NCBI GenBank assembly: GCA_026415985.1
Contig: JAOAGA010000060.1
Span: 1-10,823 of the forward strand
DNA from: Pseudomonadota bacterium
GTDB taxonomy: Bacteria > CALINM01
DNA length: 10,823 bases
Reading direction: 5' to 3'
Below are positions 470 to 6,095 of the stretch, piece after piece; the first letter of the stretch is position 1; the number at the start of each line of letters is the position of its first letter. The notes beneath the pieces were generated by a model. It was given only the letters and a program-made list of their open reading frames with translations. It was not told where the DNA came from and made no database searches. Position numbers and translations under genes: made by a program.

Positions 470-505
470 TTTACATCTTTTTACAAATTTTTACAACCAT
501 TAACA
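470..505 (+). promoter_or_regulatory. Helically phased TTTACA direct repeats (putative activator site) upstream of the nitrite reductase
   Basis: Three exact TTTACA hexamers start at 470, 480 and 490, and a near copy, TTAACA, starts at 500. All four starts are exactly 10 bp apart, which places them on one face of the helix. The last copy abuts the putative -35 element. Direct half-sites at 10-11 bp spacing are characteristic of OmpR/PhoB-family response regulators, and OmpR half-sites are themselves TTACA-like. The spacing and sequence are seen directly; the regulator family is inferred. No regulator gene lies in the window. Confidence 0.5.
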
Positions 506-534
506 TTGCACAATTCTTAAAACCTGCTAATAAT
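506..534 (+). promoter_or_regulatory. Putative sigma-70 promoter of the octaheme nitrite reductase gene
   Basis: The candidate -35 is TTGCAC (506-511), a poor 3/6 match, followed by a 17-bp spacer and the -10 AATAAT (529-534), a 5/6 match. A start near 541 would give a leader of about 25 nt containing the ribosome binding site AAGGAGGT (553-560). A weak -35 preceded by phased direct repeats fits an activator-dependent promoter. In such A/T-rich DNA other -10 choices exist. Confidence 0.4.
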
Positions 535-566
535 TTAATTAGAACTTATGATAAGGAGGTAAACAT

Positions 567-2147
567 ATGAGAAAGTTTTTTTTAATGTTAGTGATTTTTC
601 TTTTTGCTTTTTCCACCTATGCTGTGGGAGCAAAGAAAAACTCAATGGAAAAGGCGGATAGTAAGCAGTGCTATCAGTGTCATGAGGAGATTAAGTCTTT
701 AAAAGAAGGGTCAAAACATGCAAAATTGGATTGTGCACAATGTCATAGTGGTTTAAAAGAACATTTGGACAATTCCGATACCAAACCAGTAACTAACCTG
801 AGTTTAGAAAACTGTGGAAGATGTCACAAGGATCAATATGATTCCTATTTCGGTGTTAATTATCACAAAAGGGCAAAGAAAGAAAAAGCAATCCCTGATG
901 GTAGAGCACCACTACTTGATAAGCTTCTTTTGGGGCATGGTTTTACAAAGGAACATGCAGAGCCAAGGAGTCATCCCTATATGTTGATTGACCATATAAC
1001 AGTTGATAGAGCCTATGGTGGAAGATTTCAGTATAAAAATTGGGCGGATATAACTAAGTATGGGAAAGCATGGGATATCTTAATTGATACAAATAAAACA
1101 CTTCCAGAAACAGCAAAAGCAGCAAATCCAACTTGTTTACAATGCAAGACTTCAGATTTTGGTCTTAAGTGGGCATATTTAGGGGAGAAAAACCCAAAAG
1201 CAAAATGGGATAGAACATCAGATGTCTTGCAAGTTATCAAAGATGCTCAAAATCCAGCAGGTTGTATTGAATGTCATGACCCTCACGCTGCAAAAGATAG
1301 GGTAATAAGAGATGCTCTTATACAGGCAGTTCAAAGAGATGGTGATAGACCCTATAGTAAAAATAATGATAAGAATGCCCTTGATGTTAAAGAATTCAGA
1401 GGATATAGAAAAATAGGCATACTTAAGAAAAAAGATTCGGTTTTACAATGTGCTCAGTGTCATGTAGAATATGCTTGTAATCCCGGATTTGAAAAGGATG
1501 ATTTCAATAAGAAAATTGGTTTTAATGATCCAAGAACGAACATATTTCCATGGAAAAATGTATTCGATGTTCTTAAATTTTATGACGATATAAACTTCAG
1601 GGATTACAGACATCCAGTTACTGAAGCAAACTTAATTAAGTTTCAGCATCCAGAAGCAGAGACTCACTTTGGCAGTAAACATGACAGAGCGGGTGTAACC
1701 TGTGCAGATTGTCATATGGCTAAGACAAAGAATAAGGCTGGCAAAGTTTACACGTCTCATTTTGTTGTCAGTCCGAAAGAGGACCTTAAAAATACCTGTC
1801 TAAGATGCCACAAAGACTGGGATGAGAAAAAGGCTCTCTATACCATTGACAGTGTAAAAAACTATATTAAGGGTAAAATCAGAAAATCTGAGTACTGGCT
1901 ATCTCAGTTTATAGATAAGTTTGAAAAGGCAAAGAAGGCAGGAGTCTCTGAAGAGGTATTAAAGGAAGCAAGAAAACAGCATGATATAGCCCATACACAT
2001 TGGGAATGGTGGACTGCAGAAAACTCTGACGGTTTTCATAACCCGGATCAGGCAAGGCAGTCAATTGCTACCTCTATCGAAGCCTCAAAAAAGGGTATAG
2101 AGATTCTTGATAAGGCGATTAAAGAAAAGCAGGGGGCACAGAAGTAA
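567..2147 (+). CDS. Periplasmic octaheme c-type cytochrome nitrite reductase (TvNiR/ONR type, ammonia-forming)
   Basis: A signal peptide (about residues 1-22) indicates export. Eight c-heme sites follow: CXXCH at residues 35, 56, 83, 233, 295, 379 and 411, plus CLQCK at 190-194, whose Lys is the proximal ligand of the catalytic heme. Five sites and their surroundings follow NrfA order; the three N-terminal hemes are the extension that defines octaheme nitrite reductases. Expected active-site residues are present: R148 (aligned by hand with NrfA Arg106), Y302 and H361 (in QHPE), with E301, Y302, K358 and Q360 as calcium ligands. Cys304, two residues after Y302, matches the Tyr-Cys cross-link known from TvNiR. 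Family members reduce nitrite, and also hydroxylamine and sulfite, by six electrons. The 526-residue length fits this family. The ATG at 567 has an excellent AAGGAGGT seven bases upstream. The gene stands alone, with no donor cytochrome beside it. Automated pipelines may label it nrfA. Confidence 0.93.
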   Translation: MRKFFLMLVIFLFAFSTYAVGAKKNSMEKADSKQCYQCHEEIKSLKEGSKHAKLDCAQCHSGLKEHLDNSDTKPVTNLSLENCGRCHKDQYDSYFGVNYHKRAKKEKAIPDGRAPLLDKLLLGHGFTKEHAEPRSHPYMLIDHITVDRAYGGRFQYKNWADITKYGKAWDILIDTNKTLPETAKAANPTCLQCKTSDFGLKWAYLGEKNPKAKWDRTSDVLQVIKDAQNPAGCIECHDPHAAKDRVIRDALIQAVQRDGDRPYSKNNDKNALDVKEFRGYRKIGILKKKDSVLQCAQCHVEYACNPGFEKDDFNKKIGFNDPRTNIFPWKNVFDVLKFYDDINFRDYRHPVTEANLIKFQHPEAETHFGSKHDRAGVTCADCHMAKTKNKAGKVYTSHFVVSPKEDLKNTCLRCHKDWDEKKALYTIDSVKNYIKGKIRKSEYWLSQFIDKFEKAKKAGVSEEVLKEARKQHDIAHTHWEWWTAENSDGFHNPDQARQSIATSIEASKKGIEILDKAIKEKQGAQK

Positions 2148-2187: not shown

Positions 2188-2232
2188 AGGGGAATAGATT
2201 TTTGTTACTGAGATCTATTCCCCTAATCTTTT
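2188..2232 (+). terminator. Strong Rho-independent terminator of the nitrite reductase gene
   Basis: A perfect 12-bp stem pairs AGGGGAATAGAT (2188-2199) with ATCTATTCCCCT (2213-2224). It has a 13-nt loop that can pair a little further, and is followed by AATCTTTT. It lies 40 bp after the stop codon, so the reductase is probably monocistronic. Confidence 0.85.
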
Positions 2233-4413: not shown

Positions 4414-5166
4414 ATGAATAAAATTTTTTTTATCGGTGCGGGGCCCGGAAATTCCGATTATCTGACATTAAAAGGTCGAAAGTGTTTGCAAAAAAGCGGT
4501 GTAGTTTTTGCCCCAAACATTTATAAAATTACATATAAACCTTTTCTGAGAGGGAAAACTGTCTATGATCCAATGGAGTATCTTTTTAAAGATTTAAAGA
4601 AACTTATCGAAAAACACCTTATCTCAACAAATATTTCTTTTCTGTTACCGGGAGATGAGACAGTTTTTTCCCCCTTTCAGCCAATAATTGATTATTATTC
4701 TAAAATCTCTGAGGTAGTTCCGGGTGTTGGTGTCGTGAATGCAAGTTCAGCATTGTTAAAAAAGACCCTCGATCTACCCAATGTGTCCAATACCATAGTT
4801 TTGACAAGCTCCCGTTCTCTTAAATCAACCTTTGAGGATCATAATTTTATAAGATTTTTAAGTAGAGACGTGACTTTAGTCCTGTTTATGAACCATATCC
4901 CACTGAAGGAACTTACTGAAAGATTAATACCCTATATGGGTGAAAAATGTCCCATAGCGATCGTTTATAAGGTCTCTTTACCAGAAGAAGAGGTGGTTAT
5001 CGGTAATTTAAAAAATATAGCAAGTAAGGTCAAAAAGGATTATTTTGAAAGCAAAAAAGAGCCCTCAATGGCTTTAGTGATCGTAGGTTATGTTCTAAAC
5101 AAAAAAGCAACAATAAGTTCTTGGGATTACAGAAAAAAACAGATATGGGACAAAAGAAAAAAATAA
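4414..5166 (+). CDS. CbiF/CobM-like tetrapyrrole (corrin/porphyrin) methylase, divergent
   Basis: The protein has the TP_methylase fold signature of SAM-dependent precorrin and siroheme methyltransferases: FFIGAGPGNSDYLTLKG at the N-terminus, LPGDETVFSP (78-87), VVPGVGVVNASSALL (101-115), SNTIVLTSSR (125-134) and an IVYKVSLPEEEVVIGNL block (183-199). The last two blocks match precorrin-4/cobalt-precorrin-4 C11-methyltransferase best, as does the 250-residue length. Two usually conserved sites differ: the AGS segment after the first helix is APN, and the GDPSLYG loop reads GDETVFS. A genuine C11 activity is therefore uncertain. No other cobalamin or siroheme gene lies in the window. The ATG at 4414 is preceded by AGAGGT. 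The 53-bp gap upstream has no clear promoter or terminator. The lysine-rich C-terminal tail overlaps the next gene. Confidence 0.8.
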   Translation: MNKIFFIGAGPGNSDYLTLKGRKCLQKSGVVFAPNIYKITYKPFLRGKTVYDPMEYLFKDLKKLIEKHLISTNISFLLPGDETVFSPFQPIIDYYSKISEVVPGVGVVNASSALLKKTLDLPNVSNTIVLTSSRSLKSTFEDHNFIRFLSRDVTLVLFMNHIPLKELTERLIPYMGEKCPIAIVYKVSLPEEEVVIGNLKNIASKVKKDYFESKKEPSMALVIVGYVLNKKATISSWDYRKKQIWDKRKK

Positions 5167-6095
5167 AGATTCTCTCTCCTGTTGATAATTTTTTGGAAGC
5201 AAAGGCTCTTGTTGAAGAAGGTGCTGATGAGCTTTATGGCGGACTTTTTCCGTCTTTTTTTAGGGATTATCCCTATTTTCTCTCACCTAACCAGAGAACC
5301 TTCAGAGAAGCTCAGATGGATGAAGAGGAGTTAAAAAGGATTTTAGAGCTTTGTAAAGAAAGAAACGTTCCTTTTTATCTTACCATAAATCAGCTTTATT
5401 TTAAACATAAGCAACTACCGCTTATCATGAAATTAGCTGATTTTGCAATAAGTTTGGGAGTTTCAGCCTTCATTATGGGCAGTCTCCCGTTAATTATAAA
5501 TGTAAGGGAAAGGTTTCCTGATTTTCCCATACATCTAAGCACAATGGGTGTGGCATTAAACCATCATTCAATCTCCTTTTATGAAAATCTGAATATCAGA
5601 AGGGTAACCCTCGAAAGGTCTCTTTTACTAAAGGAGATCAGGGGTATAATTAGTAATTCGAAAGCCATAGAGTTTGATGCCTTTATTCTCATAGGGAAAT
5701 GTCCTAATGTGGAGGGTTTTTGTAGTCTTTTACATACAAATGCAGATAAAATCTGGCCCTGCGAGCAAAATTACAGGCTTAAAGGTTCGGAAGATATTAT
5801 TAAGGTTCAGTCTAACTGGCAAGGTTTTTACAGATCTCAATCCTGCGGTATCTGTGGCATCCCCTATCTGTTAAGCATTGGAATAGGGGCATTAAAGATT
5901 GTAGGTAGAGGTAGTTCAACAAGATTTAAGATAGAAAATATAAAGATGATAAAAGAAGCTTTATCTTTAGAAAGAGAAATAGCTGAAAAAAAGGTGCTTG
6001 TAAAGGAGTTTAAAAAGCTATATAAGACCCGCTTTAATCATCCCTGTAATTCCTACTGTTGTTATTTTCCGGAGATAGGTTTCGGATTAGAGTAA
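5145..6095 (+). CDS. Peptidase U32-family [4Fe-4S] protein (UbiU/UbiV/RlhA-like)
   Basis: The protein begins with the family's TIM-barrel strand (KIKILSPVDN, then EGADELYGG, usually G-A-D-A-V-Y-x-G). It continues through FYLTINQ, a DFAISLGVSAFIMGS segment and IHLSTMG, and ends its core with IGALKIVGRG (247-256), equivalent to the K-I-E-G-R motif of U32 proteins. Cysteines at 186, 193, 206, 234 and 237 lie where UbiU-type proteins bind a [4Fe-4S] cluster; the CX6C spacing of the first pair equals that of UbiU. Further cysteines occur at 301, 305 and 306. Characterised members carry out O2-independent hydroxylation of ubiquinone precursors or of 23S rRNA or tRNA; peptidase activity is doubtful. 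The chosen ATG overlaps the upstream gene by 22 bp. A TTG at 5121 would add eight polar residues and is less likely. The 3' end overlaps a convergent gene by 34 bp. Confidence 0.85.
   Translation: MGQKKKIKILSPVDNFLEAKALVEEGADELYGGLFPSFFRDYPYFLSPNQRTFREAQMDEEELKRILELCKERNVPFYLTINQLYFKHKQLPLIMKLADFAISLGVSAFIMGSLPLIINVRERFPDFPIHLSTMGVALNHHSISFYENLNIRRVTLERSLLLKEIRGIISNSKAIEFDAFILIGKCPNVEGFCSLLHTNADKIWPCEQNYRLKGSEDIIKVQSNWQGFYRSQSCGICGIPYLLSIGIGALKIVGRGSSTRFKIENIKMIKEALSLEREIAEKKVLVKEFKKLYKTRFNHPCNSYCCYFPEIGFGLE

Follow-up and report, generated by a model that had tools for sequence, protein, structure and literature searches.

The window (the whole stretch of 10,823 nucleotides analysed here) carries a gene for a multiheme cytochrome, and two questions are raised by this locus: to which family of nitrite reductases the product belongs, and whether the Tyr-x-Cys pair found in it sets the enzyme apart from its relatives. 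A first-pass annotation had named the gene an octaheme nitrite reductase (ONR) of the TvNiR type that retains this pair, and had contrasted it with pentaheme NrfA.

Heme motifs, sequence and fold of the gene product

The onr open reading frame (567-2147, forward strand) starts with ATG and, upon translation, yields a protein of 526 amino acids. Its heme motifs are CYQCH (residue 35), CAQCH (56), CGRCH (83), CLQCK (190), CIECH (233), CAQCH (295), CADCH (379) and CLRCH (411). The count given in the first-pass annotation (seven CXXCH and one CXXCK, with three hemes before the CXXCK) and its coordinates were exact. In the published family definition, ONRs have seven CXXCH motifs, one CXXCK motif and an active-site Tyr, Arg and Cys (PMC5433712), while a second study describes the heme order 3xCXXCH-CXXCK-4xCXXCH, a His that lies between the sixth and seventh heme sites, and a site of the calcium-dependent type, which is without XXRH (PMC10716430). 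The window ONR shows this same heme order and the same numbers of both motifs; its Y302, R134 and C304 align with TvNiR, and K358-F-Q360-H361, with the conserved His of the family, sits between heme 6 (295) and heme 7 (379). Within a set of 34 aligned ONRs, R134, K194, Y302 and C304 were invariant, and Q360 and H361 nearly invariant. The features of the gene and its flanks are collected in Table 1.

Table 1. Features of the onr gene and its flanking regions, in coordinates of the window.
Feature	Position	Strand	Basis
Operator-like 10-bp direct repeat TTTACA-N4-TTTACA-N4-TTTACA (470-495), then TTAACA (500-505)	470-505	+	Exact match to the three-repeat pattern
Putative sigma-70 promoter (TTGCAC, 17 nt, AATAAT), directly 3' of the repeats	506-534	+	Consensus match only; conserved in the promoter of the C80 onr copy
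Ribosome-binding site AAGGAGG	553-559	+	Sequence
ONR of the TvNiR family, 526 aa; signal-peptide-like stretch at the N-terminus	567-2147	+	
Hemes 1-3 (CXXCH), N-terminal triheme part that NrfA is without	669-683, 732-746, 813-827 (span 669-827)	+	
Heme 4 (CLQCK), predicted catalytic heme; Lys194, predicted proximal ligand	1134-1148	+	K194 invariant in 34 ONRs
Heme 5 (CIECH)	1263-1277	+	
Heme 6 (CAQCH)	1449-1463	+	
Tyr302-Ala-Cys304, counterpart of Tyr303/Cys305, the cross-linked pair of TvNiR	1470-1478	+	Alignment
Active-site motif of the calcium-dependent type, KxQH rather than XXRH (Lys358-Phe-Gln360-His361)	1638-1649	+	Alignment
Heme 7 (CADCH)	1701-1715	+	
Heme 8 (CLRCH)	1797-1811	+	
Terminator-like hairpin, 15 pairs	2188-2224	+	Sequence

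A sequence search of the PDB placed the ONR of Trichlorobacter ammonificans first among solved proteins (8rv0; E 4e-183, 55% identity), and TvNiR of Thioalkalivibrio nitratireducens (2ot4) matched with an E-value of 1e-164 and 51% identity. The AlphaFold2 model of the window ONR (mean pLDDT 83, pTM 0.83) superimposed on 8rv0, 3rkh and 2ot4 with a TM-score of 0.90 and an rmsd of 1.7-2.1 Å (1.7 Å for the T. ammonificans enzyme), and on NrfA with a TM-score of about 0.6. The T. ammonificans ONR (8rv0, 8rvm, 8rxu) is thus alike in fold, as it is in heme order, Tyr-x-Cys pair and active-site residues. TvNiR (2ot4, 2zo5, 3rkh), with eight hemes in the same order, stands somewhat further from the window ONR, and its source is a haloalkaliphile, with surface adaptations to match (PMC5433712). 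Pentaheme NrfA (e.g. 1gu6, 2j7a) has a homologous catalytic core, but is without the first three hemes. No hydroxylamine oxidoreductase was present among the sequence matches of the PDB search or among the fold matches. The octaheme sulfite reductase MccA appeared only as a noise-level fold match (E 0.2 or worse) and OcwA as a weak one (TM 0.36-0.37).

The window ONR is an ordinary enzyme of a known family, which had been correctly identified. We consider it highly probable that the gene encodes a canonical ONR of the TvNiR type, with the mechanism and regulation set out below.

Proposed mechanism and physiological role

By analogy with the characterized enzymes, the window ONR would be exported and would bind eight c-type hemes; cytochrome-c assembly proteins of PF01578 are present in its own genome (84% complete). 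Electrons would enter via the heme chain and pass to heme 4, whose CLQCK motif would supply Lys194 as the proximal ligand. On the opposite, distal face nitrite would be bound between Arg134, Tyr302 and His361, where its six-electron reduction would yield ammonia. TvNiR forms a stable hexamer and converts nitrite to ammonia with six electrons, and it also reduces hydroxylamine, sulfite and peroxide (PMC5433712). From this likeness we infer a nitrite-to-ammonia activity of the window ONR, with hydroxylamine and sulfite reduction as side activities, in agreement with what the first-pass annotation had expected.

In the 84% of the genome that is available, neither a catalytic subunit of a NapA/NarG nitrate reductase was recognised nor was there a family match to an NrfH/NapC-type donor. 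Two molybdopterin proteins of this genome look TtrA-like and NrfD-linked, and neither is a recognised nitrate reductase. On another of its contigs (L119 317-3626, G000:C92), genes for an NrfD-like membrane protein, a molybdopterin protein and a multiheme cytochrome stand in a row; they form a possible quinol-linked electron module, perhaps a donor route.

A main role in removing toxic nitrite, NO or hydroxylamine, or in reducing sulfite, in place of respiratory ammonification, is a serious although less favoured possibility. It would agree with the lack of a recognised nitrate reductase next to the TtrA-like, NrfD-linked proteins, with the heme-sensor kinase that adjoins the onr paralogue (see below), and with the in vitro reduction of hydroxylamine and sulfite by TvNiR. 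It would also agree with the setting of the gene: the window onr stands alone, while onr of Trichlorobacter lovleyi adjoins nap, and T. ammonificans pairs its ONR with Nap. However, the genome is only 84% complete, nitrite may be supplied by neighbouring organisms, and the isolated position of a gene is a poor guide to its function.

Promoter region, genomic neighbourhood and a second onr copy

The gene is preceded by an aminotransferase-like C-terminus (judged from its translation), and the hairpin downstream is followed by genes for a small protein, a SpoU methylase, a DUF218 protein, a tetrapyrrole methylase and a U32 peptidase. Because of this terminator-like hairpin, onr is probably transcribed alone. 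No further gene of nitrogen metabolism was recognised in the window. The tetrapyrrole methylase gene (CobM/CbiF-like) lies just before, and overlaps, that of the U32-family (UbiU-like) peptidase (window 4414-6095).

A second onr is located on contig C80, in a locus (L107 1-3875, G000:C80) that also holds the regulatory genes named below; it is cut by the contig end, and its product is 84% identical to that of the window gene over 348 residues. More than one onr copy has been reported in only 1 of 105 onr assemblies (PMC10716430). A comparison of the two copies gave a dN of about 0.10 against a saturated dS of about 2.0, and both are therefore maintained by purifying selection. The block with the repeats is conserved between both onr promoters (L107 1113-1148, reverse strand, before the C80 copy), and a likely -35 element (TTGCAC or TTGCAG) follows directly after the repeats. 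When up to 1 mismatch was allowed, the two onr promoters were the only places in the own genome with TTTACA-N4 repeated three times; in shuffled sequences, with as many as 3 mismatches allowed, an average of 0.07 matches per shuffle was obtained.

The C80 onr is preceded by genes for (i) an OmpR/PhoB-type regulator, (ii) a histidine kinase with a Tll0287-type heme-sensor domain, in which a CXXCH motif is present, and (iii) a hemerythrin-like protein. Direct repeats of 10 bp suit OmpR-type regulators. Since both onr promoters, and no other place in the genome, carry the triple repeat, a dedicated two-component control is suggested: the C80 kinase-regulator system probably controls both onr genes, and the OmpR-type regulator would activate the two copies via the TTTACA-N4 repeats. 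A Tll0287-type kinase and a regulator are also found near onr in two loci from other phyla (L062 and L076), and a similar regulator at a third onr locus (L083).

It is very unlikely that one of the two copies stems from contaminating DNA of a different organism and is no true paralogue. The assembly is fragmented (161 contigs), and the saturated dS places the divergence of the copies long ago; however, the reported contamination of the genome is 0.17%, both copies share the unusual operator and promoter sequence in front of them and are closest to one another in the tree described below, and the layout of the C80 copy (kinase, regulator, onr) is kept in a relic of a sister genome.

The data set covers three genomes of the source phylum, the own genome and two others. 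In the genome of a sister genus (G001), which contains the relic, onr (L106 6999-8665, G001:C68) has many stops and frame changes, and neither its beginning nor its first heme motif can be made out; fused remnants of a Tll0287-type kinase and a regulator precede it. As the genes around this pseudogene are intact, decay is more likely than sequencing error. No PF02335 protein (the Pfam family discussed below) was found in the third genome (G002). In that genome a molybdopterin protein with one in-frame TGA (G002:C33:17519-18790, 901-aa frame) was observed, which is possibly a selenocysteine formate dehydrogenase. The regulatory element, together with duplicated, regulated and decaying copies of the gene, offers testable hypotheses on the control of onr.

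Phylogenetic position of the window ONR

In a tree of 93 proteins, the window ONR fell inside the ONR clade (100% SH-aLRT) and was grouped with its own paralogue; the neighbours of this pair were ONRs of Geobacteraceae/Desulfuromonadales (97%). Unlike the T. ammonificans enzyme, it lies outside the Geobacteraceae clade. It is one more, phylogenetically separate member of a small family, and it extends the range of ONRs in the data set, where its phylum has three genomes. In a second tree the ONRs, including the window protein, were split from the NrfAs at 100/100, so the placement inside pentaheme NrfA that the first-pass annotation had set against its own reading was not seen. Its assignment to the ONR/TvNiR type rather than to NrfA is borne out by heme order, identity to solved ONRs, fold and phylogeny, and an identity as pentaheme NrfA is rejected for a protein with eight hemes that falls outside the NrfA clade.

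The best Pfam family of the window ONR, PF02335 (Cytochrom_C552), is common with NrfA and covers the C-terminal part, as would be the case for a pentaheme NrfA with an independently gained N-terminal cytochrome domain, but this origin has practically no probability left, given the full-length identity of 51-55% to ONRs (triheme part included), an E-value of the best NrfA match (8e-32) that lies over 100 orders of magnitude above those of the ONRs, and the position in the ONR clade, by which both trees refute it.

Tyr-x-Cys pair in octaheme and pentaheme enzymes

Tyr302 and Cys304 of the window ONR are located in CAQCHVEYACNPG (HVEYACNPG). In a numbered HMMER alignment this segment matched TvNiR CAQCHVEYNCNPG without a gap, with Tyr302/Cys304 on TvNiR Tyr303/Cys305, which confirms the correspondence proposed in the first-pass annotation. 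Both cross-link residues are present, and a Tyr302-Cys304 bond may form. A review (PMC12285233) describes the Tyr-Cys covalent bond of ONR, together with the hypothesis that it provides a better proton donor.

Every one of the 80 ONRs retrieved from genomes contains the pair; 78 of these match the search pattern directly, and the other two, with HVDYAC (L017) and QVEYSC (L048), keep Tyr-x-Cys as well. Its presence in the window ONR therefore stands, while the rarity implied by calling it retained does not: the pair is invariant in ONRs, belongs to their published definition and, being universal among the ONRs examined, is not distinctive of the window enzyme. In the second of the two divergent proteins (L048 165-1700, from a Desulfuromonadales bin), the sixth heme motif, CAQCH, reads RAQCQ; this ONR has seven hemes, or the sequence contains an error.

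Nor is the Tyr-x-Cys pair exclusive to ONRs. A scan of 386 genomes for the pattern CxQCHVEYxC returned, besides ONRs, pentaheme proteins with five CXXCH motifs, and one further NrfA came from a scan of a single phylum. In total, ten pentaheme, all-CXXCH NrfAs have Tyr-Tyr-Cys (in one case Tyr-Phe-Cys), the Cys falling exactly where ONRs have their cross-link cysteine (loci L127-L133, L140, L142 and L144; genomes G061, G053, G062, G341, G089, G194, G184, G149, G181 and G142). The catalytic-site motif is CXXCH in 10/10 of them. The four CXXCK-type NrfAs, and most other CXXCH ones, recovered with the matching Phe pattern have Phe, not Cys, two residues past the tyrosine (Tyr-Tyr-Phe in other NrfAs), a residue that this search prescribes by its construction. 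The contrast with NrfA drawn in the first-pass annotation, which cited the E. coli enzyme, is not general, since it fails for the all-CXXCH pentaheme clade.

In the second tree the ten Cys-bearing NrfAs cluster together (93/96; as a single group in 93% of bootstrap trees), apart from the ONRs, and therefore a second, independent origin of the pair in all-CXXCH NrfAs is suggested by the sequences. We put forward, tentatively and as something short of an even chance, that the pair is not an invention of ONRs and that a Tyr-Cys cross-link next to the catalytic heme may have arisen on two or more occasions, in the second case at a heme bound through CXXCH and not CXXCK. In a literature search on Tyr-Cys in all-CXXCH NrfA, none of the titles and abstracts returned was on this topic, and passages of two reviews mention the link only for octaheme enzymes or not at all. 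The observations on these NrfAs and on onr regulation are worth more than the identification of the enzyme itself, and all-CXXCH NrfAs with Tyr-x-Cys would offer a second and simpler type of enzyme in which to test the role of the cross-link.
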